From: Amphibalanus amphitrite
Lineage: Eukaryota > Arthropoda > Thecostraca > Balanomorpha > Balanidae
NCBI RefSeq assembly: GCF_019059575.1
Contig: NW_024882030.1
Span: 372,001-436,000, forward strand
DNA length: 64,000 bases
Direction: 5' to 3'
Shown: positions 3,733-61,942 of the stretch, one piece after another
Position numbering within the stretch: position 1 is the stretch's first letter
Layout of the letters: every line of letters starts with the position of its first letter
Made by a program: the position numbers and the translations under genes
Notes under the pieces: model-generated
Told to the model about the DNA's origin: nothing
The model's input: only the letters and a program-made list of their open reading frames with translations
Database searches by the model: none

Positions 3733-4447
3733 AAACCTACAGTCTAAAACCTAGAGCTAAAACCTGCAGCCCAAACTGGAAAACATCCATATGGTACGCC
3801 GGACGCCCGTGAAGCCATCATGCGCCGAAGTTCGGCGCAAGCTATTTTGCAATTTGCGCTGAAATTTCTGCATTATTTGCGCCGAAGGTTAGTGCCCTTT
3901 TGCGTCAAAATTAAGCCACTTATACAAAAAGCACGTTTACATCTGCTGGCCAAGGTTTTATAAACCAGACAGAACGCTCTGGGCCTTAACCACTCCTGAC
4001 TCCCATGTTTGAGCGTCCAAATTAGTTGATGTTTCCATGGAAGCTGAATACCACAATACGTGTAGCGCACTGTAGCATCGTGCCGTGAAATAAGGCTCGG
4101 GACGGAAGTTCCGGGGTCACAAAAATTGGTGTGGCGGTGTTGTCGCGGCTGGCGGGCGCCAGCAAGGGGTTTAAGTTTACGACACCACTCTTGTTTCAGG
4201 AGAGGTGTCAGCGATTCGAGACTACTTGGGCATGCGGGCAGCGGGGTCGGCGTGGCTGCCTGCGGCTGCGGCCACACATCTTGGCGTCCTGGAGGCGGAG
4301 ATGCTGATGGTGGCATGAGTCATCACTGGCTGCCCGATTTCCATGCTCCAAGACTCGCCGTGAGGGTCGAGGCGGGCGTCGTGCCGATGGAGAGATGAGG
4401 AGGGATGCGCTGGCATCGCGCCTACTGGCGAAGGCGCTCTCCCTCCC
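3733..4447. other. Left flank of the LTR element, unassigned
   Basis: A minus-strand open frame covers 3873-4316, but its composition does not look coding and I recognise no domain. It ends at the tccc target duplication of the LTR element. Confidence 0.4.
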
Positions 4448-20706: not shown

Positions 20707-21699
20707 TTAACCCTATTCCTGGCGGGCTCCGCCGGGACAAGAAACTGGCGGGGGGGGGCCGATTCCGCCCCCCCCTGAGATCTCGAGAACGAAGCAAGAT
20801 AGCGACAAACGGTAAACGGCATCGGATACGCACGGTCAAGATCTACAATTTTTACTAAGGTCATTTTCAGGTCAGGTCAAAGATGACGTCACAGGGGTCG
20901 AAAAAGTCAAAATGGCGGCGCTAGATATGGAGAGTTTTTCTCGAATAACTTTCGAATTAGTCAAGATAGGAACAAACTAAGGGCATCATCGTGATCCTCT
21001 CGTCAATCCGCATCGAATGATATATATATGTTGACCTCGCAAGGTCAAGGTCAAAGGTTGACCTCAGGTCACGTGACCTCGAGGTCATCATGTATATCAT
21101 TCGATGCGTCTTGACGAGCTGAACACAATGAGACCATCCACGCGTCTGTATCTTGTTCCTGTACGGAGTTATTGGCCAAAAACCTTTGGTGACCTTTGAT
21201 GACGTCACATGACCTCACAGCTGCCCAACAGCAAAACAGACCTCAAGGTAGTGAAGGTTGATCGTATATGAAGTCATGTATGGTATATGGGGCCATTCCG
21301 ACCCGTTTTAGTGGTAAAAACAGGGAGTTGATTTTTCCCCCATTGACTTATAATGGGGAGGTCGCGAAACTGACCTGACCTTAGGTCACCGATATCAAAA
21401 TTCCGAGATATACAAATTGCACATACTGGTACCCTAACTAAAGCCTGAAGAGAAGAAATTGATCGGTCAAAAACTCTAGCTCTGGCGTGATTGCAAACTT
21501 TTCTGAGGTAGGGTCACCAAACCGCCTCTGGTGACCTGACCTGAGGTCAGATCAACTCAAAATTTTCAGACATGTTGCGTAGAAGCCTTTTAGGAAAAGT
21601 CAGAAAATTTGAGCTTCCTAGCTGAACGCGTTTGGGAGAAATAACCAAAAAACCTCAGGGGGGGGGGCTCCTGAGGCCCCCCGCCAGGAATAGGGTTAA
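20707..21699 (+). mobile_element. piggyBac-like TTAA element A
   Basis: It is bounded by TTAA with inverted ends CCCTATTCCTGGCGGG. Each end carries a G-run/C-run hairpin. The core is saturated with AGGTCA and TGACCT words and contains gtcaaaatggcggcgctag and cccattgacttataatgg. No transposase frame is seen. The core is shared with C (same orientation), B (inverted) and D. It sits in a 'ttcatratgtccaggg' repeat. Confidence 0.92.
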
Positions 21700-22065
21700 A
21701 TGGGCCAGAGTTCATAATGTCCAGGGATTGCATGGTCCAAATGCGGCCAACTGGCCGCAGATAGGGTATATTCAAAGAGGCCAGGGTTCATAATGTCCAG
21801 GGCACGATGTGTCCAGTGTTCCAAATGGCCAGGGTTCATAATGTCCAGGGCACGATGTGTCCAGTGTTCAAAATGACCAGAGTTCATAATGTCCAGGGCA
21901 CGATGTGTCCAGTGTTCAAAATGGCCAGTGCCTTGAATAGGCCAGAGTTCATAGTGTCCAGGGATTACATAGTCACTGAAAGTGACGTCATTATGTAAAA
22001 AACACGGAACCAGCTCAATGCGAAGCAGTGCAGTGCCGAAGGCAATGCCTTAGGAGAGATTACAG
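21700..22065. repeat. Tandem repeats with the word ttcataatgtccaggg
   Basis: Units of about 60 bp (gtccagtgttcaaaatg, then gccagagttcataatg) repeat about four times here. They begin before element A (20650-20706) and recur inverted at 24248-24366. Confidence 0.8.
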
Positions 22066-22508
22066 TAGTGGTGTCAATCGGTTACCGAAAAATTCGGTTA
22101 CCGAAAAGATGTGCTGACCGATTCGGTAATCGGTCGGTCAGGCCCCCCCAAAATCGGACATTTTCGGTCACCCTGTCAGTGAAACCATTTTCAAAATAAG
22201 AAAGCATTCCATTTTTACCAAGTTAAATGCAATGTACCCTTAGCCAATGTACCCTGCAATCTACCCTTAGCATAGGTGTAGGAACGTTTTCGAAAGTGGG
22301 GGGGCCAGACTCCCAGAGGCACAAAACCTCACCTACCCCCAAAATCCATTTTCTCCTCGGATTTCGGCCACTTTATTTTCGCAGCATGCTCAAATTGGTT
22401 AAAAAACGTGACCAGAAAAAAAAAATCGACCAAAATCTCGGGGAGACTCCCGTCCAGAAATTATATCTCATGGACGCGTCCCCCTGGCCTCCGTAGCCGC
22501 GTTGGCAC

Positions 22509-23423
22509 CAGGAGCGGATCCAGGAAAACTCCAAGGGGAGGGTCATGAATCGAAGTAGTGCCCCTACCTGTACCCAAAATTAAAACCTCAACTGATTTCG
22601 GCCACTTAATTTTTGTGGTGCCCTATTTTCATTTTTTTATTTATTTGTTTTTGCCCTGGCAGGCCTGTGGTGCCCCTGGCGGGCCTGTGGTGCCCCTGCT
22701 AGGCCGCAGGTGCCCCTGACAGGTTTGTGGTGCCCCTGGAAGGACTGTGGTGCTCCTTACACGAGCCTGAAGTACCAGCGACAGGCCCATGGTGCCTCTG
22801 CGAGGCCGGTGGTGCCCCTGCGAGGCCGGTGGTGCCCCTGCGAGGCCGTGGTGTCCCTGCTAGGCCGCTGGTGCCCCTGGGCCCTGACAGGACTGTGGTG
22901 CTCCTGACAAGCCTGAAGTGTCCCAGACAGGCACGTGATGCCCCTGACAGTCCCAAGGTGCCCCTGCGAGGCCAGTGGGTGCCCCTGGCAAGTCTGTGAT
23001 GCCCCTGGCAGGTCTGTGGTGTCCCTGGCAGACCTGCGGTGCCCCTGCTAGGCTTCTGGTGCCCCTGACAGGCCTGTGGTGCTCTTGAAAGGAATAGAGT
23101 GCTCCTGGGCCCTGACAAGCCTGAGGTGCCCTGACAGGTCCGTGGTGCCCTTGACAGGCCCAAGGTGTCCCTGCGAGGCCGGTGGTGCCCCTGGAAGGGC
23201 CTTTGGTGCCCCTGGAAGACCTGTGGTGCCCCTGACAGGTCTGTGGTGCCCCTGGCAGACCAGTGGTGCTCTTGCTAGGCCGATGGTGCTCCTGTCAGGT
23301 CTGTGGTGCCCCTGTCAGGTCTGTGGTGCCCCTGTCAGGTCTGTGGTGCCCCTGGTAGGCCTGTGGTGCCCCCGGGCCCCAAGGGGGCATGACCCATGTG
23401 ACCCCACCTTGGATCCGCCACTG
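22509..23423. mobile_element. hAT element filled with a minisatellite
   Basis: The ends caggagcggatcc and ggatccgccactg match the common CAGTGGCGGATCC hAT terminus. The target gttggcac is duplicated exactly at 22501-22508 and 23424-23431. The interior is largely an 18-bp-type tandem repeat. Confidence 0.9.
22650..23390 (+). repeat. Minisatellite inside the hAT element
   Basis: This is a degenerate array built on ggtgcccctgncaggcctgt, with about forty imperfect units. Open frames across it on both strands are by-products of the repeat. Confidence 0.9.
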
Positions 23424-24247
23424 GTTGGCACCCATGCGAATTCCAGATGCATCCAAAAACATTTTTTATTACGAGCGAGCGTGAAACGTGAGAAGTGAAA
23501 AGCCAGCAAAAGGTGTGTGTGTGTGGGGGGGGGGCACTTAACATTGCTGGCCACCATTCGAAAGTGGGGGACCATTGCCCCCTGCCCCCTGTTCCTACGC
23601 CTATGCCAGTAACCGATCAACTAATGCAAGGCCGCCTAGCATAAATTGTTAGTTTACGCCGTTTACGCATTCTGCTGCGCCAGTACTGTCTCTCTTTGCA
23701 GCGCGCGCTGCCCCTAAGTTGCCACTTATTGCTTCTGACAAAGTTACCTTTAATTGGGTGGAGGAAAATTGCACTCAATAACGATGAAGCACAAATGGAA
23801 ATCTTCATGGAAGGGCAGGCCAGAGAACCGTCAAGTTTGTTCTTCGGGGTGATACCTACAAATACATTAAAAAGTTCAGCAAAAAGTGGGGGGGCAGTTA
23901 ACATTACTGGCCCCCCACTATGAAAAGTGGGGGGGCCACCGGCCCCCCGTCCCCCCCTGTTCCTACACCTATGACCCTTAGCAATGTAACTTCTACCACA
24001 AAATGTATTTTGCAGTGGCTAAGAATTGACTGAACTTGGACTGAAATGCTATTTCCCATTATTTTGAAACAGAATTTACCAAATAATTTAATTTGGGGGG
24101 TAAAATAATAGCAACTCTAGAATTTCGGTCAAAGTTCGGTCAATTTTTGGCTTGGGATGTTATCGGTCGGTATTCGGTCGGAAATGTTTCCCAAATTTCG
24201 GTTTCGGTCGGTATCGGTCAGCCACTTTTTGGAAAATGACACCACTA

Positions 24248-24366
24248 ATTTGGACCATGTAATCCCTGGACAATATGAACACTGGCCAATTCAAGGCACT
24301 GGCCATTTCGAGCACCGGACACATCATGCCCTGGACATTATGAACCCTGGCCTAAATAATACGCAC
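24248..24366. repeat. Inverted arm of the ttcataatgtccaggg repeat
   Basis: It reads as the reverse complement of units at 21.70-21.98 kb (ctggacattatgaaccctgg). Confidence 0.75.
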
Positions 24367-24855
24367 CCTCAGTATGCCACCTTTGGTTCCAACAACCGAC
24401 GATAGGTGGCAGCGACCTCGGCATTCTGCCGACTCTGGTTCCAACAACCGCCGATAGGTGGCAGCAGGTCCGCGGCTGTCTGCCGCCTCTGGTTCCGACA
24501 ATCACCGATAGGTGGCAGCAGGTCCACGGCTGGCCCACGGCTGCCTGCCGCCTCTGGTTCCGACAACTGACGATAGGTGGCAGCAGGTCCGCGGCTCAGT
24601 CTGCCGCCTCTGGTTCCGACAATCACCGATAGGTAGCAGCAGGTCCACGGCTGCCTGCCGCCTCTGGTTCCGTCAACTGACGATAGGTGGCAGCAGGTCC
24701 GCCGCTCAGTCTGCCGCCTCTGGTTCCGACAACCGACGATAGGTGGCAGCAGGACCTCGGCATTCTGCCGACTCTGGTTCCGACAATCACCGATAGGCGG
24801 CAGCAGGTTCTGGGCTCAGTCTGCCGCCTTTGGTTCCGACAACGGGCGGTAGGTG
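24367..24855 (+). repeat. 54-bp minisatellite, right array
   Basis: About nine units of ccgacgataggtggcagcag type, with some hybrid units. The same family lies at 20455-20640, so the array was probably split by the material now between the two. Confidence 0.9.
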
Positions 24856-25084
24856 GCACTAGTGACGTGACAGGGCAGTGAAGAGAGATGTCAATCTGAT
24901 ACTCAACTTTTTGGTAAACCGGTACATGGGCGTAGGAACAGCTGGAACATTGTGGGTGCATGGGTGCAGAAATCCAGCCATGGCCGGTGAAGCGGGGGGG
25001 GGGGCGACACCCGAGCGAAGGCTCGTTACGAGCTTTGAGGGTGTACCATGTCGAAAAGGTACCAACCGATAAGTGCATTTGGAA

Positions 25085-25407
25085 CACCTATCCGTGCTTC
25101 TATCCTCATGATACTGAAATCCTTCTCCTCCACACCGCCACCCCCTTCCGGGCTGGACAGGCAACTTTATCTCATGCGGGCTGCTCCCTTGGAGCGGCAC
25201 CGCTGCTCCTGAGGGAGCGCAACCCGTAGCCGGGTGCAGTGAGTGCCTTGGGGCTGGGTGGCCTGTCTTCGGACGGGCTCAGCCCCGGCGACTCACTAGG
25301 ATGTCTGCCCAGACCAATGTCTCCCCCTAATTCCTATCATCCTTCCGGCTCTGCAATGGTCTTGTCGACCGAAAGGGCCTAACCCAACAAAACAAACAAA
25401 CAAACAA
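25085..25407 (+). repeat. SINE-like element, copy 2
   Basis: 323 bp, ending in an (AAAC)n tail, with an exact 10-bp target duplication gcatttggaa (25075-25084 and 25408-25417). The fixed start and A-rich tail mark a retroposon. I see no clear tRNA or 5S head. Confidence 0.85.
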
Positions 25408-26284
25408 GCATTTGGAAGCATTGACCCTCGCATGTGTAGGGGGGTCGGATGAAACCCCCCCCCCCCATGGTTGTTCGCAAATAACTCGCGCAAAAAGCGG
25501 CCGATCGCGACGAAACTTTTAGTATGTACCCTCGAGTTGATCAGTTTTACATCTACTCTAAAAATTTCATGACCCTGACCCAAAAGACCTTTGACCTGTC
25601 ACCTGATTCTCGAGACCATGTTCGGCCGGAATGGCGATTTGGCGTATGTCAGCTCACATTATCCGCGCGTTTCCAGTCTTTTTGTGATTGTAGACGTCCA
25701 ACAAACATGTGAAATGATGTCCTTCCCATGCATCACGGTGGGTGTGAAGACTGTGAAGATAACCTGAAGGTCAGGTCAGGTCATTGACCTTTGATGACCT
25801 CGGTTCACTTTTTCGAGTTTTACATGTTTCTAGGCTAGTTTTTGGAGCTGCACTGAAAACACTTTGGAAGAACGTTAAGAACGTACAGGGGTATTTAGAC
25901 CCCTGTGGGGTAAAATGTTATGCCACCGTTTTTCAGAACCTCCATGGTTCTTCACGTAGACGGCTTTGCATTCTCATCAAAAGAATCCACACGATTCTTC
26001 CAAAGACTCTTATGAGGTTTAGGGTTTATAATAAGAGCGTTCTTAGCACCTAGATAAGAACCCCAAAGGGTCTGTGAAGAAGTCCCTGAGGTTTATAGGG
26101 AAACCACTCTGTGTTCTGAATATCGGTTGTAGAACCCTTTCAGTTCTATTGCAATACCGCAAAATCCCCGTTCATTCGTCTATTGAACCTCCCATGCATG
26201 GCTATCGACCTGCGCCGTCACATCTGCTGCGCAAACACAGCATTTGATACACCTTAAAATGTATTACCTTCCTCTTTACTCTGA

Positions 26285-26400
26285 GCAATCAGCCTGCAAG
26301 TCTCCAGTCAGGAACAACCAGCCCGCAACCAGCCCATGCGATCAGCCCGCAACCAGCCCGCATTCAGCCTGCGATCAGCCCGCAATCAGCCTGCAGGAAC
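26285..26400 (+). repeat. Short minisatellite (atcagcccgca units)
   Basis: Repeats of 10-11 bp, variants of caaccagcccg and gatcagcccg. Confidence 0.85.
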
Positions 26401-26559
26401 GCTTTCCATTCGGCCGCGTCACTTGCCTTACACATCCAAGCCAAAGAACTCCAGGAGCCAAATATGAACACATTTTTAGCTTTAGCAAGTGGATGTTTTC
26501 CCAAACACAGTATGTTTGCGCTATCGCCCATGTCAGCAGCCGGGTGGCGATATCGCATT

Positions 26560-26709
26560 CTCCCAAATCACATACAGTTTCTCCTTCCACCACCAGCCTC
26601 AAGCCAGCGTTTTCGACGATGTAGACGTCTCCGCGCGGCGCGCGCCAGGACGCTCTCCTCAGACTCCAGGGCCTCAATCAGAGCGGAGATGGCCTCGTCC
26701 CCTAGAATG
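26560..26709 (-). pseudogene. Exon-like segment carried in the CACTG element
   Basis: After a good acceptor (cgactcttcattctag) the minus strand reads GDEAISALIEALESEESVLA and then RAARRRLHRRKRW. The acidic helix followed by an Arg-rich stretch is faintly like the N-terminus of HARBI1-type proteins. A second frame is also open here. It could be a captured host exon or a transposon exon. I do not recognise the protein with confidence. Confidence 0.3.
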
Positions 26710-28906
26710 AAGAGTCGGGCGGATGCGTTATTCAACAGACAGGGAGTAAAGAAACTTAGATTGACTTCAGAGACCATGAGCCTACTCCAAAAATAAAATA
26801 ATTCACTTGACATATAAAGCGCAATATAGATAAAATATTGCACTAATCAGCACGAACATATGTTTATTAAAATCAGCCAAATTTAGGTATACCTAAATCA
26901 ATTGATCCCAAAATGGCAAGCTGATTCTATTCCTGGTTTATCTTCATTTGGAAGATTTGTCTAAATACCACATGCATAATTTAAGCTATGGGGCATTTAT
27001 ACAACATATAAATACTTACTGCATTGATTGGTCTTGCATATGAATTGTCTTCATCCAATGCATTCATCCATGCATTTGAAGAGCGTTGTGATATTGCTTA
27101 GTATGGTCAATCACAAGTAATATAAATAATACACAACACTTGACAAGCAAAAAATTAACCTTATTTCAGTTCTTCAATATTTGATTGCTTGCCATTCACC
27201 CAGTCTTGCACCAGCCGCTCGTCACTGCACAAAGCGTGATCCAACGCGATCGAAAAATGGCGATCGCTTCCGGTGGACGGTAGAACGTGGTACCGCGGGC
27301 GTGGTCTTGATGAAAGCCATTACACTGATTAAACCACAACCCCTTCTTCTTAAACCCGATGCTAGTTCGTGCAAAACCTTCAAAGGGTTTATCTTTCGCG
27401 CGCTTGGTGTGACGTAATATCACGTGACTAGGGAGAACGAAGAAGAACCGGTGTTGGTCGAGTTGAAGCGCCCCTGGGGCCACTAATATTGCACGCGAAG
27501 AAGCAGCACGTGTCTTCGGTCTATGTGAAACACTGTGTGTGTTCTTCATGAACCAGACGTTCTGCTTCGCCTCTAAGCCAGTTTACCCTAATACCCAAAA
27601 AACCTAAGTGTGGAATATTTTAAGATGCTTTTGCATAACGTTCTTTCAACTTGTTTTCAGTGTGATTTCGAATTTACCATCCATTTGAACGTTTACGAAG
27701 TAGTTTTAGTGCTTTCGTGACATGCTACGACGCCGTCAGTGGTAGTTGACACCTACTATGGATAGCCGGTAGGACGCCTAATGGTTGACCTGACCTGACC
27801 TGACCCGATCTGGCCTAAATGCATGAAGAAATCATCTGTGATCAAAACAAACATCAGATATTTGTGATCAGCACCCCGAAAAACCCGATAACAGCTTCAC
27901 TTTACGCAGTTCTAGCAGGTCCCCATTTTCCCGACTTTTGGAATATTGACCTGACCTGGAAGGTCAACCAATGAAGTAGGACCTTAAAATTGGGTATCAT
28001 CGGCTTCCTCTCGTCACGGGCAACACCCTCGTTTTTTCCGCGAAGCTCTAGCTCGATCAGGGGCCGAACGGCAGGGGGTCCGACCGACCCCCTCCCCCTA
28101 CACATTAGAAGCTGGAAAACGCTGCACACATTCGAGGGCTTATATTGTCAATACTGACTACCGCAAAAAGTAAAAGCGGCCAACTTAGCCATTTTCGAAG
28201 ATATCGGGCTAAAATTTTTGACAGTGGGTCATCGGTTCGGTATGTGTTCAATCACATGCTCCATTTCCTTTTTTCAGCACAAATGTAAGTTTTGAAGACC
28301 ATCACTGATCACAGTAGCAAATGCTTCGAAAGATGGATAGTAGGCAACATATCCTGAATTTGCCGTGCTGCATGGGATGTAGTGTTGATGAAAAAGGGGT
28401 TTTTGGTTCAGATTATTGTGGGTGCAGAATACATTGTCTGCACCCACTGGATAAATATTGTGGGTGCAGCTGCACCCTTGCACCCATGGTTCCTACGCTT
28501 ATGAACCGGTACCAAACCAAATCGATACCAACTTGGTATTTGGTATTTTCATCTTAACATTTTTGGTATTTTGTTGGTATTATGAAACCTCACTAATTAA
28601 TAAGAGGTTGAGAAATTGGTAAAAAGTCGGTATTTCCTTGTGCCCAAGTCGGTTCGGTTTCGGTATTCCCTCACGGTTTTGGTTGGTATTTGGTTTGGTA
28701 TCGGTATTCCGATTTTCCGTAATTGATACCACTAACACGAACACCCTCAAAAGTAAAGGGGGAGTTTGTGCCATCATTGAGCTGGGCTCGGGATACCCGA
28801 GCTCTTATTCCACGCCGGCTTGGCTTTGGAGCCGCCACAGACGGCAGAGGTCAAGGTCACCGCTATATAGGTCAGCTGTGGATTTGCTGCGCCCAGGCAC
28901 CCCCAC

Positions 28907-29903
28907 TTAACCCTATTCCTGGCGGGGGGGCCTCAGGCCCCCCCCCCCCCCTGAGGTTTTTTGGTTATTTCTCCCAAACGCGTTGAGCTAGGAAGCTCAA
29001 ATTTTCTGACTTTTCCTAAAAGGCTTCTACGCAACATGTCTGTAAATTTTGAGTTGATCTGACCTCAGGTCAGGTCACCAGAGGCGGTTTGGTGACCCTA
29101 CCTCAGAAAAGTTTGCAATCACGCCAGAGCTAGAGTTTTTGACCGATCAGTTTCTTCTCTTCAGGCTTTAGTTAGGGTACCAGTATGTGCAATTTGTATA
29201 TCTCGGAATTTTGATATCGGTGACCTAAGGTCAGGTCAGTTTCGCGACCTCCCCATTATAAGTCAATGGGGGGGAAAATCAACTCCCTGTTTTTACCACT
29301 AAAACGGGTCGGAATGGCCCCATATACCATACATGACTTCATATACGATCAACCTTCACTACCTTGAGGTCTGTTTTGCTGTTGGGCAGCTGTGAGGTCA
29401 TGTGACGTCATCAAAGGTCACCAAAGGTTTTTGGCCAATAACTCCGTACAGGAACAAGATACAGACGCGTGGATGGTCTCATTGTGTTCAGCTCGGCAAG
29501 ACGCATCGAATGATATACATGATGACCTCGAGTTCACGTCACCTGAGGTCAACCTTTGACCTTGACCTTTCGAAGTCAACATATATATCATTCGACGCGG
29601 ATTGACGAGAGGATCACGATGATGCCCTTAGTTTGTTCCTATCTTGACTAATTCGAAAGTTATTCGAGAAAAACTCTCTCCATATCTAGCGCCGCCATTT
29701 TGACTTTTTCGACCCCTGTGACGTCATCTTTGACCTGACCTGAAAATGACCTTAGTAAAAATTGTAGATCTTTACCGTGCGTATCCGATGCCGTTTACCG
29801 TTTGTCGCTGCGATGTGTAATTTTTGAGATCTGAAGGGCGGCCGAATCGGCCCCCCCCCCGCCAGTTTCTTGTCCCGGCGGAGCCCGCCAGGAATAGGGT
29901 TAA
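28907..29903 (-). mobile_element. piggyBac-like TTAA element B
   Basis: TTAA lies at both ends, with the same CCCTATTCCTGGCGGG termini and core as A but in inverted orientation. The length is about 997 bp against 993 for A, with few differences. It has no transposase frame. Confidence 0.92.
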
Positions 29904-30043
29904 GCAAAAGCTTTCATAAATGATCAAAACACGTTTGCGAGTGCCATTTCTGTAAAATTTGTGTATTCAACACCTCGTCCTAAGCCTCGCATACACTGAC
30001 AAGAGGTTTAAACACGGTCTATTGTAGAACCTTAGGTACTGAG

Positions 30044-30233
30044 CTAATCTACTTCCCAATCATGTATTTCAATCGCCATCAGCCTGTGCACCATGAGCGA
30101 CACCGAACCGGACATATCTGGTCCAAACCAACCACAGCCGACCGGACCACCGACGGTCCGACACAGTGACGGGCGAGGTCCGATATCGCCCGGACCGGCC
30201 ACCCTCACAGCTAGCTCCAACGACTGGTCTAAA
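30044..30233 (-). CDS. Candidate last exon of gene copy 2
   Basis: An acceptor (gttgtagtttcag) is followed by LDQSLELAVRVAGPGDIG, a Gly/Pro-rich middle and MVHRLMAIEIHDWEVD before a stop. It is GC-rich like the host exons and lies downstream of LRR4 on the same strand. The phase (two bases needed) does not join directly to LRR4, so at least one more exon would be required. It may be unrelated. Confidence 0.35.
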
Positions 30234-30489
30234 CTGAAACTACAACACAGCAGCACAGCGGTGTGAGCCAGCGTGACGTCACGACAACACAGGTGACGTC
30301 ACCACGGCGGTACCTCCGGCACGGTGACAACGGTTTACCGACGGCTGGACAGTGGCCCCGGAGCGTGATACATCTTGGATACTGAACATACCTACTGTCT
30401 ATCAAAGCAGTGTCAACAAACGTAGCAATCTGTGCTCAAATGATCAAGCATTTAGGTGGCCACTTAACCCAAACCAGCCTGGCACGGTG

Positions 30490-31497
30490 TTAACCCGCGC
30501 ACCGACGGGGGTCTGCGCCAACTTAGTACCGACGGGGGGGGGCGGATGACCGCCCCCCCCTGAGATCTCGAGAACGAAGCAAGATAGCGACAAGCGGTAA
30601 ACGGCATCGGATACGCACGGACAAGGTCTACAATTTTTACTAAGGTCATTTTCAGGTCAGGTCAAAGATGACGTCACAGGGGTCGAAAAAGTCAAAATGG
30701 CGGCGCTAGATATGGAGAGGGTTTTTCTCGAATAACTTTCGAAGTAGTCAAGATAGGAACAAACTAAGGGCATCATCGTGATCCTCTCGTCAGTCCGCAT
30801 CGAATGATATATATGTTGACCTCGAAAGGTCAAGGTCAAAGGTTGACCTCAGGTCACGTGACCTCGAGGTCATCATGTATATCATTCGATGCGTCTTGAC
30901 GAGCTGAACACAATGAGACCATCCGCGCGGCTGTATCTTGTTCCTGTAAGGAGTTATTGGCAAAAAACCTTTGGTGACCTTTGATGACGTCACATGACCT
31001 TACAGCTGCCCAACAGCAAAACAGACCTCAAGGTAGTGAAGGTTGATCGTATGTGAAGTCATGTATGGTATATGGGGCCATTCCGACCCGTTTTAGTGGT
31101 AAAAACAGGGAGTTGATTTTTCCCCCATTGACTTATAATGGGGAGGTCGCGAAATTGACCTGACCTTAGGTCACCGACATCAAAATTCCGAGATATACAA
31201 ATTGTAGCTACTAATGACCTAATAACATCCTGCGACTTTCAAAGGCCTCCGACATCTACTGTAGCTCTGGCACGGTGACAAAGTTGCAAAAAAGTGACTT
31301 GAGGTTGGGTCATTCAAAGTGACCTGGTGACCTGACCTTAAAAGTTAGGAGGTTCAAACTTGCACACCATGTGTAAAATTGATGAGAGAATAGTCATACC
31401 AAATTTCGCGGCGCTACGCGCCGCGGTTTTCCCGCTATCCGCGAAAAACCTCAGGGGGGGGCGGATATCCGCCCCCCCCCGTCGGTGCGCGGGTTAA
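30490..31497 (+). mobile_element. piggyBac-like TTAA element C (A core, different ends)
   Basis: The inverted ends CCCGCGCACCGACGGGGG are flanked by TTAA. From the word gagatctcgagaacgaagc onward the first 700 bp follow A almost base for base. The last 300 bp follow D instead, including a palindrome ggcgctacgcgcc. There is no transposase. Confidence 0.92.
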
Positions 31498-32686: not shown

Positions 32687-35600
32687 CTGCAACAGATCAC
32701 AACAAAACAGAACGGGTCAGTATACGGGACACAGTCACACAGTGGCACCAGCGGTCGACTCGACACGGAAACACCATGTAGTTCCAATGCCTTTCATAAC
32801 AGAACATATGTGCCTCCGGCTATCTCCAGTTTCCAGTCTTGCCCTGCAATTTGCTACGCACGTTTCACACAATACTCTTAGAGCCTTATACCACCCAATA
32901 TTATGTCCATATGCATAGTAATACCAGTCCAGTCCAGTCGTCTGTCTGTCTGTTTGCATGGCATCAACACAACTGTCAGGGCTGTGTGGAGCGCGTGTTG
33001 TCGCCCCGTGTTGTCGTGCTGCGCTGTGGTTGGCTGTCCCCGCCGCCCGGGTCACGTGACGTGGCGACCGGCCGGTCGGGCCGTGCGGCGGGGCCGGGGG
33101 TGAGTGACAATACAGACGCGCCAGCGACCGGGTGTTTGCTGCTGCGTGCGTGGCCACGTGACATGGTGGCAGCGGTTCAGTGATCGCCATGCCTGAGGAC
33201 GCGAAGAGTGCGACGCTTAGTGGCACTGCCACTGTTCCAGTGATCAGAGTGTCATTGTCGGATTTTCCGGTCTACGACGGTAGCTCGGCACCCGACCGTT
33301 TCATCCAGCAGTGCGAGCGGCTGGCGGCCCTCGGGGGCATCGCTGATGGGCAGCTTCAGACCGTCATCGCGGCGCGATGTCGCGGTCTGGCCCTGGAGAT
33401 CGTCGAAGCTGACGGCGAAGTGGTGGACGTCACAGGCCGACTGCGTGCCGCCTTTGGCGCCGGGACATCCGAGTTGGCTGTGTCGCGTCTTGGCTCAGCG
33501 GTCAAGGGCGACGCACCGGTCCTGGAGTACGCCACGCGTATCAAGGAGCTGGTGCGTGATGCGTGCCCCGAGTTTTATGACGCCTCGGGCAAGGTCAAGA
33601 CCATCTGTGTACCGGCCCACAAGGCCGCTCTCTACCGGCATCTTCTGATCGGGCTTTCGCCGCAGGAGAAACTTTTGCTGTCCCGTCAGAACGTGTCCAC
33701 GTTCGACGCCGCCGTGGACGTGCTGCGTCGTGAGGAGACGCTGGCGGAGGCTTTCGGCGAGGAGGAGCGCCGCGCGAGCGCTTGGGTTCAGTGGGCGGAT
33801 CGCGAAGTGATGGGGGTCGGGCGCGGAGACATGATGTCTCCGACTCCGAGCGGTGATCGGAATCAGGAGGATTCCTCGCGCCGTGAACGTGACCGTCCGT
33901 CCGTGGAGCGGGCGCGCCGGAGCCCGAGTCCGGCTCGCGGCTCCTGGGGGCGGTCCCGCGCCGTCGCCGCTGGCGGGCGCTCGGGCGGCTCGCCGTATGC
34001 GCCCTCTCGTGGCGGCCCTCGGGGCTCGCCTCGCCGTGATGACTCGCCGTGGCCGACTCGTCGTGGTGACCCGCGGCGCGCGCCTCGCCGTGGCGACTCA
34101 CCGTGGGCTGCTCGCCGTGGCGACTCGCGACCGGCGCCTCGCCGGGATGACGCGTCGCCTGACAGTGAAGAGGAGTGGCGGCCGGGGCGCCCCGGCGGGA
34201 GACGCGGCTCGCCGGCGCCGCCGGACCGCACACGGAGGGAGGTGCGCTGCTGGTCGTGCCGTGGCTATGGGCATCTGAAGCGGCAGTGCCCAAACGGCTA
34301 CTAGGGCAGCGTGGACGTCGGGTGATGACTCTTCCGACTACTCGGGTAAATGTGAACGGCTTCCTGGTAAGTGACGCACTTTTGGACAGTGGGAGCCAGT
34401 TGTCCTTACTCGATAGTCGTGTCTTTAGTGTCATCGCCCCGAACGCTGAACTGACGGCACCTGCCCGGCTGTTATCGGCTACCGGTCATCACTTGAACGC
34501 GGTAGGGAAATGTGTTTTGCCAGTGCTAATCGCAGATGGTCGAACTAAGGACACGGAGTTCACAGTGGTACATAATTTGTCTCACGACATTGTGCTGGGG
34601 TGGGACTTTATGTCGGAGAATGGAGTTGTTTTGAATTGTTCGCCAGATGCGAGCCAGATTAAAGTCAGGACAAAGAAGCCCATTTCAGTTCCCGCGCGAT
34701 CGGCAGTTTGTCTAAATGTGAAAGTTGATCGGCCCGTGTGTGTTGCGGGGGAATATTTGTTTGTCGGGCAAAGTTCGAATGATGTCGAAATATGTGACTC
34801 GTTACTTACGCCATTTTCCGAGACGGAGATACCACTTTATGTTCGCAATCGTTCCGACCGCGTTATCACGATTCACCGCCGCAGCGTCATTGGTTATTTG
34901 GAGAGCGTCGAGCCCGTGGAGGCCGAGCCTGCCGAGCGCGTCGGGGAGGCTCAGGTGAATGCTGTGTCGGCGGACGACAGTCGCTTTGTCGGGAAGTCCA
35001 CGGCCGACATTCTCTCAGAGTTTGTTGTCGGAGAACCGCTCTCGGCTACTCAGCGTGATCGGCTGGCCGATCTCCTCAGGTCGTATCCCGAGATATTTTC
35101 GCGAAGCTACGCGGATATCGGGACATATAACGGCGGAGACGTTGATTTAGAGCTGTTGCCAGGAGTCCGCCCTCAGTTCGTTAGGCCATACCCTGTCCCG
35201 TGGGCCCGAGAGGACCAGCTCAAGGCCCAGCTGGACGAGCTGCAGTCTTGTGGTGTTATTGAGGAGGGAGAGCCGTCCGACTGGAACAGTCCCATTATTC
35301 TGGTGCCCAAGGGAAAGGACAAGCGTGAATTTAGAATAGTGCAGGATATGCGGTCCTTGAATAAATGTTTGATGCCCAAAACGTTTGTGTTCCCGAATAT
35401 AGATGATTTTATTTTTTCATTAGGCGACTGGAAAATCGCGTCCTCGTTAGATATTAAGTCTGCGTTTTGGAATTTGTGTTTGACGGAAGAGTCCAGTAAA
35501 ATATGCGCATTCTATGCTTTAGGCAAGACATATTATCCCCGTCGCATGCCAATGGGGTGCATGCAGAGTTCGTATTTTTTGCACCTAGTTATGCGCCGAG

Positions 35601-38600
35601 TACTGGGAGACTTGCCTGGCGTTCACATTTATTGTGATGATATTTTGTGTACTAGTTCCTCGATAGAAGATCATTTCCGTTTACTGCATAGCGTCTTCGA
35701 GAGGCTTAGATCAGCCGGTCTCAAAATCGCTCCGGAGAAGTGCAAGCTTTTCCAAACGTCCCTGACATATTTGGGACACCTCATCACGCCGGACGGCATA
35801 TCCATTGATCCCAGCCGTCTCAAGGTGATTGACGAGATGCCCCGTCCGTCTTCTATTAAGCAGGCCAAGCGTGTCCTCGGTTTCTTTGGTTGGTTTCGGA
35901 AGTTTTTCAAGTCTTTCTCGACTGTGGCAGAGCCTTTAGTTGTGTTGAGTAATGCCGATAAGTTCTATTGGAATAGTGAGCTGGAGCAGTGTTTCCTGCA
36001 GCTGAAATCTGAGCTCACTGCTCACGTGGTTCTCAGTTACCCGCGGAAGGATTGTCCGTTTATTCTATATACGGATAGTTCATCGTCGGGATCGGGACAG
36101 GTTCTCTCCCAGATCTGGCCCGATGGCCAGGAGCGGATCGTTGCTTTCAGTGGCAACCGATACAGTCGCGCCCAGCGCAAATGGACTATTTTCGAATTAG
36201 AGCTTTTCAGTTTTATCCAAGGTCTCAAGAAATGGTTCAAGTATTTGGCTGATAATGAGTTCCGATGGATTTGCGATTGTAAGAGTGCTTTGCAAATTCT
36301 GAAAAATAAGGAGTGGATCAATCCCCGCTTGGTCCGCTGGCGAGCGTTCGTCAGCCAGTTTCGTTTTACAACGGAACACAGAGGTGCCTCGCAGATGCGT
36401 CATGTTGATGCACTCTCTCGCCTTCATGAGGACGCTCCGGCCTCTGAGGATGACGCCGAGTCCGATGGCGTGGCGCCGGCGGCTCGGGCGCTGCGGCCGG
36501 AGCCGGTGTCGGGGCCGGAGCCGGTGCGTGTCTCGCGAGGCGGCCGTGGCGCCGCCCGTGGTGCGGCGGGGGGCCGGGCGCGCCGGGCGCTGGGTGACAA
36601 TAACCTCGATGCTGAGCCCCCGATTGTGCCCAGCGAGGCGCGGAGGCAAACAAATGCGACGAGTGCTGAACTCGAAGGATCGCCTTGTGCGTTGGATGGT
36701 GTGCTCAAGGAGCAGCCGGTGGAACCGGAAGCGGCTCGGGAGGTCTTAATGACTACTGCTGACTTTTTAGTCCAGCAGGCTCTCAAGCCGGAATCAGTAA
36801 TCTGGTACCAGAAACACGACCGCAATTGTCGAGCTATTGCGCACCGACTGAAGCACAACAAGTGGCCCAGGTACGCGCCGCCCGTTCTGCGGCGGTTATC
36901 AGCAGACCAGTTCACTTTTCGTAACGGGATGTTATTCCGCGGTGATCAGATTGTCTGGCCTCTGTCTAAACGATTCGAGATGCTCTACAATCATCACGAC
37001 GTATCGCAGCACGCCCATGGAGGCGCCGGGAAGCTGTACGAGCTACTTAGCCGGCACCTCTGGTATCCGGGCCTGCGGTCCGACTGTACCGACTACGTAA
37101 AGAGCTGCACGAGGTGTTGCCAACGGAAGGACACGAGAGCCCATCGCTCGCCTCTGCTGCCCCAGCGAGCTTCATACCCCAATGAAGTACTCGTGATCGA
37201 TATACTTTCCATGCCGAGAGGGAATGTTCACGGATGCTCAATGATTTTAACGTGCGTTGATAAATTTACCGGATATTTGACCTATTATCCACTGCGCTCC
37301 GGCGCCGCAGATTACGTTGTGGAGGCGTTGACACAGCATTTTTTGACCTTCGGTCCCCCTGAGCGCATTGAGAGTGACGCGGGTTCGAACTTGCTGAAAC
37401 ACGGTCATGTCAAGGTCTTGTGTCAACATTTCGGTGTGAATATTCGTGTGAGTGTAGGGTATCATCACGAGGCGGTGGGTGCAGTGGAGCGGCGTCATCT
37501 GGACATTAAACGCCGCTTGCGTGCTGTCTCTGAGTCGGGCGGCGCTGACTGGGAGACACGCTTGTCTGGAGTGGTCTATTCCTTGAACAATGAGATTTGT
37601 GACACTACTGGATACAGCCCGTTTTTTCTGTATTTCCTGCGCCATCCGAATAGTCCGCTGTCACAGCTAGCTAGCGCGCCCAAAAACAAGTATTCGCCAG
37701 ATTTTGTGCACGAAAAACTGCGTCTGTTATCAGCGACCCTTCGGCAGGCTCAGGACCGTCGTGATGAGATGTCTGGTCGTTACCAGCGCCAATTTGACAA
37801 GCGGTATCATGTACGCGATGTTTGTTACCGGGAAGGAGACCGACTTTGGGTGAGAAATGTTACAAGGGCCTCCAAGATGGAGGACCCGTGGGTCGGACCG
37901 TTCATAGTGTCATCGATGGTCGGGCGCAGACATGTTGAATATATCACCGACAGGGGCGTCCGTCGAACCCATGTCCAGAATACAAAGCCGTATGAGGTGC
38001 GCCGCCCGTAGTTCATGTTCGTTGCCGCGCTGCCGTATGTTAAGGTTTATGTTCACTTGTTCGCTGCCTTGTTTATTGTGTGTATCCGTTGCACATTTTC
38101 GTGGAAGGGGGGTAATGTCAGGGCTGTGTGGAGCGCGTGTTGTCGCCCCGTGTTGTCGTGCTGCGCTGTGGTTGGCTGTCCCCGCCGCCCGGGTCACGTG
38201 ACGTGGCGACCGGCCGGTCGGGCCGTGCGGCGGGGCCGGGGGTGAGTGACAATACAGACGCGCCAGCGACCGGGTGTTTGCTGCTGCGTGCGTGGCCACG
38301 TGACAACAACCACCTGAATCAAAAAGTCTGCTTGTGGAGGCCTATTCTTCTGTAAAGAGTTTGTTTCTATTTCCAGTGTCCCCGTGCCCGTATTACTATG
38401 TAAACCTCCAAGGGATACCCAGTTTCTGGGGTTATTGCGGTCTATCCAGATAGGTACACATAAATATCCGCCGTCGCCGTCCGGCCGACTGACCTGCTGA
38501 CCGCTGCCACCTCTGACTGGGTCAGGGCAGGGATGTCCGCGAGGGGCCGGGTGTCTTTGAACTCCAGCGTATCCAGCTGGGAGCAGCCGTGTAGGGCGGA

Positions 38601-41600: not shown

Positions 41601-44600
41601 CTCGATTTACCCGTGATTAGAACGGAATCCGGGCGCCGCCGGTTCCTATACGCCACTGTATCGCAGTATAACGCTCTGCCTCAGGCGCTGCGCAATCTCG
41701 GTCACAGGCTCTTTCGGAGGGAGTATCGGAAGCTCCTACTGCGTGAGCAACACGGCGACCCGGCCAGTGTGTAGCGGCGCGGTGGCGCAAATGTGAATAT
41801 GTGTGCAAATGTGATGCGTGTGTGTTGTATGTAATGTTGTGCCCACCTCATTCGTTTCACCTGACTCGGCAGCCAATAATAGCCATTTTCGGATGGATCG
41901 GCTTGCCACGATAAGTACATTACAATACAATACAATACAATCAGCACAACATACCACAAGTTAAATAAAAAAAAACTACCAAACTCCGCCCAACTAATAT
42001 TAATAAACATTACAGCCAAACTAATGGCCTAAATAAAAATATATCTCAAATCCTAACAGTTATCGCGGGTGATGGCGCTATGAGTTGCTATTATCCAAAA
42101 CAGATGCAAATAAACATGTTTGTATGTCCTATGTATGTTTGTTTTAAAAACGTTGCAGCGGCGCTGGGAACTGCAGTCTTAGATCTGGGTATGTTTGGCA
42201 TATGCAACTCTTCATATACACATTAACCCTATTTCGGACGGGGAGGCCTTTCAGGATTTTCTTGTACAATTGCCAAACGCCGCGAGACATTCAGCTCATA
42301 TTTGGTGACTTTTCCTAAATGCTCATTGCGCACATCTCAGCAAAAAAAAAAATGCCGGGTCAGGTCAGGTCAGGTAACCAGAGCGGGTTTGTTGACCCCA
42401 CCTCAGAAAAGTTTGCAAACACGTCAGAGCTTGAGTTTTTCACGAAGTTATTTCCTCTCATCAAGTCTTCAAAACAGTACCTGCAGTATGTATCGTTTGT
42501 ATATCTCAGAATTTTTGATCTGTGACCTGAGGTTAGGTCAGAGTCGTGACCTTTACATTGCAAGCCTATGGAAAAGTATTGAAATGCGACCTGCACCTCG
42601 AGTAAACGAGTCAAAACCACCCAATTCATTAAGAATTGTGACAAATTATCTTATCTGTAATGATCCAGGTGCCATTTACTGACAGGGACACCGGGGAGGG
42701 TTATCTGAGCCGAGATCATGTGGTGATATCTACCATACATCAATGCTCACAATACTTACAATATTGACAATGCTTTTGCTTACAACACTTACAATACTTA
42801 CGATGAGACCAGCAAGCACTCTGCCGTTACAGTTCTAACTTCTGTTTCGAAAACCGACGTTACACACATTCGCTGCCAGCATAACATGTATTGTTTGACA
42901 GTAACAAAATACAATTGACATCTGAACCCCAAACGGACCGCCATCCACATTCCACTCAAATTGTATAACCCTGACCGGTCAGGGCGCGAATGGAGGTCAT
43001 CTCCTGGGCATTACACTCAGCCCTTGCACAAAATATTGACAGGGGGCAGGTAGTCTCTCTTATAGCTGCTGACACCTCTAAAGCTTTTGACAGCGTTGAG
43101 CATGGCCGGCTCGTGGAGAAGCTGGGGCTGGTATGGTATTGACCCCTGGTGGTTTGCCGACTGGCTCAGTGACCGCAAACAGACGGTCAGGGGCGGCTCG
43201 GAGTCCCTCCCGGTTTCCCACGGTGTGGTACAGGGTAGTATTCTTGGACCGATACTTTTTACAGTTTTTACCAACGACCTTCCGTCTCACGTACCGTGCG
43301 GCAGACTGATTATGTACGCGGACGACACACAATTCATTAATACCTGTGGACAGACCAGTATCGGAGAACACGCAGCCGACCTAGAGGTCATGCTCGGGGT
43401 GGTCCAGGCATGGTACAATCAAAACAGCCTGAGGATAAACCCGTCAAAAACAGAACTGATCATGTTCGGAAAAAATCACGGAGCCGATTTTTCTATCCAG
43501 TTTGCCGGTGCAGTAGTTCAGCCATGTGAGAAGGTGAAGGTGCTGGGAGTGGTGCTCGACTCGCGCCTACAGTGGGTGGACCACGTGTCCTTAGTGGTGC
43601 GCCGGTGCTACAGCACCTTATCAGGTCTCTCAAAATTCTCCCATCGGCTGCCGAGTTCGGTCAAAAAACTAGTCGTCGAGTCCCTGGTGTTCCCACACAT
43701 TTTGTACTGCGCTACTGTTTGGGGCGGGTGTAATAAAACCCAAAGACATAGGGTTCAGAAAATTCTAAACCATGCCGCGCAGATCGTGTCGGGATGTTCA
43801 CGTCGGACGCACGTTACGCCACTTCTAGCCCAACTGGACTGGCAGAGCGTGGACTCCCTCATACGCGAGAGAGATATCATTACCGTCCACAAGCTGACAC
43901 ACTCGCATCTGGCTCCTGTCAGACTGAAACACAAGGCGCTGTGAGGTGTCAAGCCGCTGTACCCGGGCTACGGAGGCGGGTCACCTGGAGCTGCCCCAGG
44001 TGCGCTCTGAGCGGGCCCGGCGGCACTTTTGTTTCCGGGCCGCTATGAGCTGGAACGATGCCTCTGATGCTGTCAGGGAGCCAGTAACTGTCGCCACGTG
44101 TCGTGCGAGACTGCGATCAAAGTGAGCTTCTGCACTGTGATGACTGCATTTTAACTCTGTATCAACTTTGTGTATTAATCTGTAGAACGCGTCGCGAGGT
44201 ACAGTGTTTTATAGTTAGGCTGTGATTCTTGAGCGGTGACAATAATATGTAGGTATGTAGAAACCATGTGATCATAATTTGTATGTAGGTACCAATACCA
44301 TACATGATGCTTCAATGTATATTGACGCAAGCTTTAAAACCCACCATGTGGAGGCTTAAGATCGTAAATAAATAAATAAATAAAATATCTCACCTCACAG
44401 TGATCATTACAACAATAGCACCGACTTGATAGTGGATTTCAAAGTACTTGCATCAGCTCTTCCTGCTATTGCAGACGATCATCTCCTCAGGGTAATGTTG
44501 TTCGGGACATGAACGAAGATCGTTTTCGGAGTTTCATAAGTGCTACTGCAACAGCCTGGCACAAAACAGGACTTGTACGCTCTTCTCTGCACTTTGCCCT

Positions 44601-49262: not shown

Positions 49263-49697
49263 TTAACCCGGCAGTTGCTGGGTTATTTCACTACCCACCG
49301 TTTGCTGGGGGGGGGGGGGCGTTAAACGCCCCCAGCCGATAACTCGCGAACCAATAGGCGCAGCGAAACGCACGAGGCGGCAAACAAAAGAACGCGACGA
49401 GAAGCTTCAGATGAGTACTTTAAAGTTGAATTTTGAGGTCACAGGTCGGGTCAAGGTCAGGTCAAACACCTGAAATCGGGCTTTCAGTAGCATGGACTTC
49501 AGGACTTCGCAATGGGCGCCTCTCGTCATCAGCTCTGTCAAAACGGTGCACAATCCATCATATAAGGCCTACAAGAGTGTCTGCTCCATGTAGGGGTCAG
49601 TCAAGCATAGGTCAGGCCTAGGGTCAAGGTCAGGTCAACCGGGTAGGCAAATATCCCCGAAAATCAAAACTGATATTCGCAGCCTGTGACACATGTT
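49263..49697 (+). mobile_element. piggyBac-like TTAA element E, right side missing
   Basis: It starts TTAACCCGGCAGTTGCTGGG, with a hairpin of G-run, gcgttaaacgc and C-run. The core has ggtcaaggtcaggtcaaac. It runs into element D, and no matching right end is seen beyond D. Confidence 0.7.
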
Positions 49698-50879
49698 TTA
49701 ACCCGCGCCCTGCTGGGGGTCCTGGATTTCCACGCCCTGCTGGGGGGGGGGGGTGTTTGAACACCCCCCTTGTAACTCGGCTCCTGGGCCACGTAGCGAT
49801 ACGCGGAAGGCGGCGTTCGAAAGAGCGTAAAAAATAATGACGAAATCACTTCGGTCAATTTTTTGGTCAGGTCAAAGGTCAGGTCACCAGAGGTCTTTGA
49901 AGGCAAAATTTCGCCGATTTCCAGGTCGAATGTCGAAAATTTCCAAGAAGCCAACGCATAACTCGGGAACCAATAGAGCTACAGCGCCGCGGAAAAGCGC
50001 AATCGATAGCCCTATTAACGCCCTTTCTGAGCAATTCTCTCAGATTTGACCTAACGTCAACGGTTTTGCCTGCAGGGGGCAAAAACTGCAAAAATAGCCG
50101 ATTTTTTCGAAAACAGTTTTTCTGCAATAACTTTTGACCCAAGCCTTGTACGAGCTTACTTTTACCGGCATCGTGTTCCTCTCGTCAAGACGCATCGAAT
50201 GAACTATAATTTGACCTTGAAAGGTCAACTTGAAAATTTGACCTCAGGTCAAGGTCATGACCTGACCGGAAAGGGTATGTTGCATATCAGTCGATCCGTA
50301 TCGTCGAGCTGAACACATCTAAGGCGTTTTCATCGCTCTAGTATGTCTCTATCAAAAGTTATTTGCGAAAAACCATTCGTGACCTAAGATGACCTCAGGG
50401 CATAAACAAGGGTCACGGACACCATTTTCAAGCTCAGTGTGTCTAAATCACTTGTAATTCGGTGTTTGGGAGCGTTTATAATGTCTTTCATCCAAAAGAG
50501 GCGCATTTCAATTTTCTCCCATTGACTTATAATGGGGAGGTCGCAAAATTGACCTGACCTTAGGTCATCGATATCAAAATTCTGAGATATACATTTTGTA
50601 CATGCTATTGCTCTTAGCAATCGCTGAAAGTTTCAAAGCGATCGGTCTCTCGGTGTAGCTATGACAGACATTGAAAGTTTTTATGAGGTGAGGTCACTTC
50701 AAGTGACCTGGTGACCTGACCTTGAACGACCTTGGTCTGAAATTTTCACAACATGTGTAGAATTGATGTATGATAAGGTGTACAAAAAACGGCGGCGCTC
50801 CGCGCCGCCGTTTTTGAGATATTCGCGAAAAACCACAAGGGGGGGTGTTCAAACACCCCCCCAGCAGGGCGCGGGTTAA
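49698..50879 (+). mobile_element. piggyBac-like TTAA element D
   Basis: TTAA lies at both ends, with termini CCCGCGCCCTGCTGGGGG. The end hairpins have the core ggtgtttgaacacc. The core shares ctcgtcaagacgcatcgaat and cccattgacttataatgg with A-C. A palindrome (cggcggcgctccgcgccgccg region) lies near the right end. It is 1.18 kb with no transposase. Confidence 0.9.
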
Positions 50880-51218: not shown

Positions 51219-51822
51219 TTAACCCGGCGGCCGCTGGGCCTCCGCGCCACCCGCCGGCCGCTGGGGGGGGGGGGGCATAAAGTTGCCCCCCCTTTACTTC
51301 TGCGACGATATCGTCGCAACGCGAAGAGATAGAGAAGCGAAACTTTGCACACATCTTCCTGAATACCTAGCCGAGGTTGTGTCCAAATTTGGTGTCGATC
51401 CCATTTGAAATGACGTCACAGTGACGTCATAAGTGAAATTATAGATTTGCGACTCTCATATTCCTCACGATACATCACATATATGGGACCGAATATAAAC
51501 GGCCGATTATTGGTCAGAAACTAGATGGAAGTGTAGTAAGATGTTTTAGGATGACAGCAGGTGCTGTCCAGTTCATTTACAGTCGAGTTTCATGCTCAGC
51601 GTCATCAGAAACGGTCCATGTCGGAAAACGACAAAACTTCATGACGTCACTGTGACGTCATCTTAGGTGCTACAACCACCAAACTTTCCTCAAACATTGC
51701 CTAGGTATTCATTTGAAGCTATGCCAAGTTTCGCGTTCATAGCTCATCAGGTTTCGGAGATATTTCACAAAACGTAAAGGGGGGCAACTTTATGCCCCCC
51801 CCCCCAGCGGCTCGTGGGTTAA
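51219..51822 (+). mobile_element. piggyBac-like TTAA element F
   Basis: TTAA lies at both ends. The left terminus is CCCGGCGGCCGCTGGG and the right is its inverse with changes. The G-run/C-run hairpins have cores gcataaagttgc and gcaactttatgc. The 604-bp core has several gtgacgtca words and is not obviously related to A-D. Confidence 0.85.
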
Positions 51823-61051: not shown

Positions 61052-61942
61052 TTAACCCTCGCCCGTATAGGGGGGGGGGGTCGAACGGACCCCCCCCCAT
61101 GGTTTTTCGCGAATAACTCGCGTAAAAAGCGGCCGATCGCGACGAAACTTTCAGTACCCTCGCGTTAATCAATTTTACACCTACTCTGAAAATTTCATGA
61201 CCCTGACCCCAATGACCTTTGACCTGTGACCTACTTTACGAGACCATGTTTGGCCGGAATCGCGATTCGGCGTATGTCGGCTCGCATTAGCCGCGCGTTT
61301 GCAGTCTTTTCGTGGTTTCAAGCGTTCAAACATGTGATATGATGTTGCCCCCATGCGTTAGGGTGGGTGTCAAGGTCACCTGAAGGTCAGGTCAGGTCAT
61401 TGACCTTTGATGACCTCGGTTCACTTTTTCGAGTTTTACATGTTTCTAGGCCAGTTTTTGCAGCTGAATTCGAATTTAGCAACCATTTGAACATTTACGA
61501 AGTAGTTTTGGTGCCTTCGTAACATGTTACGAAGCTGTCAGAGGCGGTTGACACCTACTAGGAATACCCGGCAGGACCCCTACTGCTTGACTTGACCTGA
61601 CCTGACCCGACCTGGACTAAATGCATGAAGACATCATCTGTGATCAAAACGAACGTGATATTCGTGATCAGCACCCCGAAAAAACCCGTAGCAGCCACAC
61701 TTTACGACGTTCTAACAGGTCCCGATTTTCCCGACTTTTAGGTCATTGACCTGACCTGCAAGGTCAGCCAATGACCGAGGACCATAAAATTAGGTATCAT
61801 CGGCTTCCTCTCGTCACGGGCAACACGCTCGTTTTTTCCGCGAAGCTCTAGCTCGATCAGGGGCGAAACGGCAAGGGGGGGTCCAACGGACCCCCCTTTA
61901 TACGTTCGCGGCTGGAAAAACACCAATACGGGCGAGGGTTAA
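61052..61942 (+). mobile_element. piggyBac-like TTAA element G, with empty-site proof
   Basis: The inverted ends are CCCTCGCCCGTAT, the hairpin cores gtcgaacggac and gtccaacggac, and TTAA lies on both sides. The paralogous sequence near 16760 (gattttttaacacatacc) has a single TTAA and no element, which directly proves a TTAA insertion. The core is full of AGGTCA/TGACCT words. It has no transposase. Confidence 0.95.

Follow-up and report, generated by a model that had tools for sequence, protein, structure and literature searches.

How do transposable elements with closely related interiors come to carry different ends? The question is raised by four elements, A to D, in a 64,000-nucleotide stretch of the barnacle Amphibalanus amphitrite genome (contig NW_024882030.1, positions 372,001 to 436,000; hereafter the window), which an earlier note had described as TTAA-flanked elements with related cores and different ends. 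Their coordinates, TTAA sites and inverted ends were confirmed: element A (20707–21699, forward strand, 993 bp), element B (28907–29903, reverse strand), element C (30490–31497, forward strand, 1008 bp) and element D (49698–50879, forward strand) measure 993–1182 bp, have TTAA on both ends and carry perfect inverted ends of 20–22 nt, 20 nt in the terminal inverted repeat (TIR) of A. No ORF (open reading frame) of 150 aa or more overlaps any of them, that is, they lack a transposase gene. They are TTAA-flanked, non-coding elements of the piggyBac type, in the manner of miniature inverted-repeat transposable elements (MITEs). According to the parts consulted of a study of coral MITEs (PMC2872659), MITEs of the piggyBac superfamily start with CC[C/T]T. 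A and B start with CCCT, while C and D start with CCCG, outside the letter of that rule; autonomous elements of the class start with CCCT, CCCG or CCTT. The answer we arrive at for A and B is that they are chimeras, with the outer parts of one family, X, and the core of another, that of C. Genome-wide counts are from the 807.6-Mb assembly, in which the window lies on contig C533.

The core is common to A, B and C. Positions 43–721 of A match positions 44–723 of C with 96.5% identity over 682 bp, and A and B, on opposite strands, form one family (96.3% identity) whose members here differ in their left junction. D had been counted among the bearers of the same core and is a relative, not a copy: C285–1008 and D472–1182 are 68% identical (745 bp), D has its own end motif, and the C–D homology continues to the right end of C, whereas the match between A and D ends at A836. 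C represents a young family with 99–100% identity among the 41 best full-length matches listed (C itself included), and the 40 copies scored for D are D itself and 39 at 95–97% identity. The ends of A and C do differ, but the difference extends beyond the 16–18 nt terminus to the left 58–69 bp and the right 280 bp, here called the shell. In 50-bp windows, A and C are 94–100% identical from 51 to 700, against 60% in the first window and 50–62% after 700, and the drop on both sides is abrupt, not gradual, between adjacent windows. Such windows also speak against a core match made of low-complexity words only, by which the earlier note's proposal would have failed. Within the core 14 of 628 sites differ and 614 agree; in the outer parts (A 1–44 and 714–945) 123 of 274 differ and 151 agree, a count with a chance of ~4e-69 even at three times the core rate.

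The outer parts of A are shared with a family that has a core of its own. Its first copy, L034 (1002 bp), turned up among the 30 right ends that come first on contig C1, a set picked by position and not by similarity. It has A-type ends and a different core, and X, A and C are nearly equal in length (1002, 993 and 1008 bp). The left X-type shell of A (20707–20764, forward strand), with the TIR, the inner copy of the family motif and the start of a palindrome within a G-run, has no difference to L034 in its first 44 positions, against 20 of 44 to C. The C-type core (20775–21404, forward strand) differs at 14 of 628 sites from C and at 238 of 617 (39%) from X, the cores of A and X being 55–80% alike by segment. 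The right X-type shell (21420–21699, forward strand) differs at 8 of 232 sites from L034 and at 103 of 230 from C over A 714–945. A second X element, L038, lacks its first 87 bp and is 96% identical to L034 over L034 88–1002. The central core of L034, used as a query, returned 1,334 first-look candidates, of which the 40 scored (L034 included) are 98–100% identical. On the contigs covered by the X-junction list lie 18 of those 40, and 13 have the A-type (X) left end alongside; the other five, with no X left end listed beside them, may carry a changed search word or another end. The window itself holds an old, decayed X-type right half (42223–42709, reverse strand) with the end TTAACCCTATTTCGGACGGGG, related to the terminus of X, and ~80% identity to L034 507–847, core part included. 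X is therefore a genuine family whose core is its own; A consists of an X shell and a C core, collinear with both parents. Collecting copies, as the earlier note had advised, thus brought both parents of A to light.

This mosaic structure recurs in every A-ended copy tested. The sample comprised two X copies, six of the 31 distinct C copies and 13 A-ended copies (eight best matches including A, three from contig C1, B, and one beside the transposase locus C702). The first 45 alignment columns, which were shifted by one base, were omitted, leaving 329–333 sites that separate X from C; an odd left switch in L035 vanishes with them. Where L038 lacks its first 87 bases, X is represented by L034 alone. 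A mosaic with two switches, from X to C and back to X, fits 97.9–98.8% of the informative sites in 13 of 13 copies (98.0–98.9% of 352–356 sites with the first columns kept), against at most 245 sites in 20 shuffles per copy. The right switch falls at 696–718 in all 13, inside a stretch common to X, A and C. The left switch is at 56–73, within the G-run palindrome, in 12 copies, and in A itself between A58 and A69; B, an A-type chimera with a longer left X tract, switches at 103–107. A differs from the X shell by 2.9% (8/276) and from the C core by 2.2% (14/628), while the shells of A and C differ by 45%. The near-equality of the first two distances is expected if both parts were joined at one time.

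The hybrid is abundant. Exact left junctions of the X shell with the C core number 1,370 in the genome, compared with 2,315 of C shell and C core and 201 of X shell and X core; the reversed controls gave 0. Any TTAACC end on a C core was found at 3,806 exact left junctions (reversed control 0), so that the two shells, X and C, cover 3,685 of 3,806 left ends on this core. These counts are lower bounds, since a single change in the search word loses a copy. A longer X-core word, whose last base differs between L034 and L038, matched L034 only; the word one base shorter, with the X end, gave the 201.

It is very probable that A and B arose by exchange of homologous interiors, the C core entering an X element through ectopic homologous recombination or gene conversion. 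The elements would comprise two modules: a shell, made of the terminal motif, its inner copy, the G-run palindrome and ~280 bp on the right, and a core of ~630 bp of AGGTCA-rich non-coding DNA. Going by known piggyBac biology, the choice of transposase would lie with the shell. The interior of an X-family element would have been replaced by a homologous C-type interior, template switching during gap repair being counted here among the gene-conversion routes, and both X ends would have stayed in place. Since both are retained, one event yields a 'symmetric' end difference and two separate end swaps are unnecessary. The hybrid would then have been amplified to at least 1,370 copies, presumably via the transposase that acts on X ends. 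The modular end exchange proposed in the earlier note is thus supported by the two parents, the mosaic and the existence of autonomous piggyBac elements with three other end types of this class, and is best read as core replacement; for an escape from a host silencer, its other suggestion, there is no evidence, and nothing tested speaks for it.

A second pair of elements, L028 and L036, looks like another exchange. They are 92–100% alike in windows 101–800; of the complete 50-bp windows, the first and the last fall to 56% and their neighbours to 72% and 80%, and the motifs of the two elements differ at both ends. On its right side, the L036 shell bears an arm rich in GGCGGCGC that resembles the one in D. 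The shell of L028 is that of autonomous elements. The PF13843 profile gave 116 genome matches, and the flanks were read around 16: six have ends of the present class, eight have other piggyBac ends (C1201, C642, C12 and C103 on both sides; C852, C1643, C531 and C2310 on one side), and two (C264 and C72) were assigned to neither. The unequal pair of ends found on the L028 MITE, TTAACCCTAGAACGC.. and TTAACCCTCGCACGACC.., recurs in C527, C44, C42 and C1173; the L028/L029 type of ends (TAGAACGCC/TCGCACGACC) is present on these autonomous elements, which have a DDE_Tnp_1_7 transposase. Termini of TCGCACGACC against TAGAACGCC occur in MITE and autonomous copies of the L028 family alike, so the unequal ends are native there. 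L029 and C527 share 97.7% identity along 391 bp at one side and 91% along 266 bp at the other, from which the L028/L029 MITEs look like deletion forms of a C527-like autonomous element. C33, in three copies of equal score, has CCTGGT ends and flanks 68–72% like D, and C702 has CCCGTT at one end.

The transposases found linked to ends of this class are PF13843 matches; Kolobok is another TTAA superfamily. A Cys/His pattern is common to the C-termini of C33, C527 and C702. Their profile has its best match in 5lme, a piggyBac transposase zinc domain (E 0.0069, last 25 of 65 positions only), followed by ribosomal protein S14 (E 0.037); the match to 5lme concerns the second part of the pattern. Pfam gave no match above cut-off for five transposase C-termini.

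Several points weigh against an exchange of interiors from C to X. No donor copy was read for the L028/L036 case, and X is known from two copies read (L034 whole, L038 partial), the junction counts and one old fragment. Alignment is loose near the G and C runs, where A and X differ at 6 of 20 sites in A45–68 and at 8 of 48 in A946–993. In the search for autonomous elements with each end type, which the earlier note had called for, the ends of A, C and D were not found on any autonomous element among the 16 of 116 transposase loci whose flanks were read. The direction of transfer is left unsettled by the core tree (44 cores with A or C ends, plus two outgroups), in which 28 of 35 inner branches are open. 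A single clade (100/100) on a short branch unites 29 C copies there; apart from L034, the A copies fall into a polytomy with two other C copies, and L034 lies far outside, thereby revealing X. For direction the tree is not decisive: its bootstrap had yet to converge, and 26 of its 31 C rows represent loci that had been selected as best matches.

The polytomy below the young C clade is what gives some weight to the reverse polarity, in which A is the older combination and the hybrid would be either C, with its core from A, or X, with a foreign core in an A shell. A and C are also about equally diverse in the sample from contig C1 (98.1% mean identity in three A copies, 97.9% in five C copies). 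This order of events is nevertheless unlikely, as the old fragment at 42223 pairs an X-like end with an X-like core and the homology between C and D spans core and right shell alike. On the same two grounds, the old X fragment and the continuous C–D homology, we favour a move of the core from a C-type element into the X shell. Two further arguments about polarity were dropped. One was that the left palindrome of A resembles that of C rather than A's right one; most A copies have CCGATTCGG, as X does. The other was a greater diversity of A than of C, a figure that had included L034; without it, mean identity is 98.7% among A copies and 99.3% among C copies.

Alternatively, the ends could have evolved faster than the core, driven by a change of transposase and without recombination. 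Motifs do drift slowly: the copy at 42223, ~80% identical to L034, has TTTCGGAC for TTCCTGGC, CCCGGCTG stands in place of CCCTGCTG at one side of several D copies, and L019 differs in motif from a 93% relative beside C1173. A gradual divergence of ends together with cores, which the earlier note had set against its own proposal, is seen to this extent. For A and C, it is contradicted by the X family and the sharp switch boundaries: the left 44 bases of A are those of X, and the 8 differences in 232 of its right arm indicate descent from X and not rapid change of a C end. We consider faster ends very improbable; they could apply to pairs without an identified shell donor. Insertion of a C element into an X element, with later loss of the C ends, has in its favour that elements of these families adjoin at several places with one TTAA in common. 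It is contradicted for A and B, and highly improbable, given that A is collinear with both parents and nearly equal to them in length, switches at homologous positions, and has printed junction sequences without TTAA or a terminal remnant. Finally, a core match produced by repeated AGGTCA words in unrelated families can be dismissed, for even with AGGTCA the commonest hexamer, or tied, in the six cores tested, the agreement of A and C at 614 of 628 core sites far exceeds any hexamer effect.

The ends of these elements follow a common plan. A generic right-end pattern had 12,463 matches in the genome (reversed control 0), and nine terminal types occur among the first hundred or so matches listed, one of them seen once. 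In 11 elements the layout is TTAA, CCC, 4 bases, a family motif of 6–7 bases, a G-run, a palindrome and a C-run, the exception being C33 with CCT in place of CCC at one end. A second copy of the motif lies ~20 bases further inward at one of the two ends. On average the motif copies of an element agree at 4.26 of 6 bases, against 2.13 between the nine end types, and 0 of 20,000 permutations attain the within-element value; the automatic motif cut misplaced the outer motifs of X and C33 by stopping at an inner GG, a bias that opposes this result. The left and right palindromes are alike in most elements (TGTTTGAACA twice in D, CCATTTTGG twice in L019) and not alike in X and A. In the piggyBac element of T. 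ni and in piggyBat, as described in the parts consulted of a structural account (PMC11707139), a short tip motif is likewise followed by a palindrome; the transposase core reads the tip-proximal motif and two zinc domains bind the palindrome. In piggyBat, motif and palindrome recur further in; the layout of left and right ends differs in these systems (PMC11707139). By analogy, the ends of the barnacle elements would be transposase recognition sites, and they differ from those of piggyBac and piggyBat as described there in that motif and palindrome vary by family and the palindrome lies within long G and C runs.

Neighbouring elements of this class abut on one shared TTAA (GGGTTAACCC), head to head or next to an autonomous copy, at the flank of C527 (L091), the flank of C1173 (L101, about 115–119), G000:C28:267728-269740 and G000:C6:2136882-2137507. 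At L037/L038 (G000:C1:1715589-1720121), two D-type right ends lie on opposite strands, 1,533 bp tip to tip, which gives the impression of a single element with a right end on either side or of two copies joined together.

The core itself is rich in AGGTCA, known as the nuclear-receptor half-site. There are 17–20 copies in each of A, C, D, X and L019, where ~0.5 is expected from 200 dinucleotide shuffles of each, and in the six cores tested no hexamer is commoner than AGGTCA, although others tie with it in L028. L028 and L036 have 7–8 copies. The rest of the window has 1.1 per kb; in outer flanks taken from 68 loci, where other repeats may be present, the figure is 3.55 per kb. Between C and X, 11 of 19 AGGTCA sites are intact, compared with 5% of other hexamers, and the positions stay homologous among C, X and D while the surrounding sequence has diverged to ~55%. 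When the sites are masked for the alignment, 9 of 19 (C–X), 11 of 19 (C–D) and 10 of 17 (X–D) still meet a site in the same orientation, which only 1–2 of about 1,000 circular shifts reach. Such motif-blind alignment shows the effect weakly for C and L019 (3 of 19 sites, reached by 14 of 1,007 shifts), and conserved positions were not confirmed between L028 and the 61052–61942 element (1 of 8, reached by 144 of 948 shifts). An imperfect internal inverted repeat rich in AGGTCA/TGACCT lies at 20986–21131 in A and at the same place in B and C (no strand assigned), with arms of 42–53 nt that are 79–83% complementary.

From these sequence patterns, the core may be functional. A more specific suggestion, which we consider rather doubtful, is that it is no mere passenger but a cis-acting module of 15–20 AGGTCA sites needed for mobilisation or survival, recombining between shells that answer to different transposases. 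A role in cis in movement is attractive because MITEs need no promoter; alternatively, the constraint on AGGTCA may be inherited from autonomous ancestors.

Other parts of the window hold further members of the class. An 891-bp element (61052–61942, reverse strand) has the end motif CGTATA/CGTATT and 15 AGGTCA copies. A 604-bp element (51219–51822, forward strand) has GCCGCT at three sites, a G-run and a palindrome, and with the same end build it contains no AGGTCA and four TGACGTCA instead. The left end of another element (49263–49333, forward strand) was recognised from its end structure, with TTAACCCGGCAGTTGCTGGG, an inner motif and a G-run palindrome; no partner end was found for it. Long ORFs at 33180–38011 and 55207–59306 resemble, as judged by eye, a Gypsy-type retrotransposon and a LINE-type (long interspersed nuclear element) retrotransposon, respectively.

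Conserved cores with changed ends had been thought undescribed for MITEs, but the CMITEs of the coral Acropora (Wang et al. 2010) already show the pattern, unexplained. In the parts consulted, these are TTAA-flanked MITEs of the piggyBac type whose internal region is more conserved than their terminal repeats; one copy has the end of one class and the core of another, one family shares its ends with an autonomous piggyBac-like element, and the authors leave the origin of the core as a 'mystery' (PMC2872659). The barnacle elements are like CMITEs in the TTAA, the piggyBac type and, for A and C, a core better conserved between families than the ends. The likeness is one of pattern and not of scale: CMITEs as described there are ~100 bp with a 75-base core, a length the barnacle elements exceed at ~1 kb (993–1182 bp), with thousands of copies and both donors identified. 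Chimeras have also been proposed for the P-element MITEs of Anopheles gambiae, through internal deletion and repair from an ectopic template, one family having ends from two subfamilies; they belong to another superfamily, and the parts consulted report no significant identity between interiors (PMC1562414). The Pokey elements of Daphnia are piggyBac elements in two groups, with one mPok MITE group having TIRs like each, and no core common to the MITE groups is reported in the parts covered (PMC4912750). Within the open-licence literature searched, it appears to be new that both parents of a successful hybrid, and its junctions, have been identified, at a scale of thousands of copies.

The puzzle of conserved cores and changed ends known from CMITEs is met here with both donors in one genome, in hundreds to thousands of copies each, so that the route, recombination, is open to direct reading, dating and testing. 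The case also illustrates how a single step could switch the transposase on which a MITE depends. The conserved AGGTCA array makes testable the old idea that the internal sequence of MITEs matters for transposition. If the core does act in cis, these elements would be two-part machines, with a replaceable address, the shell, and a reusable engine, the core.

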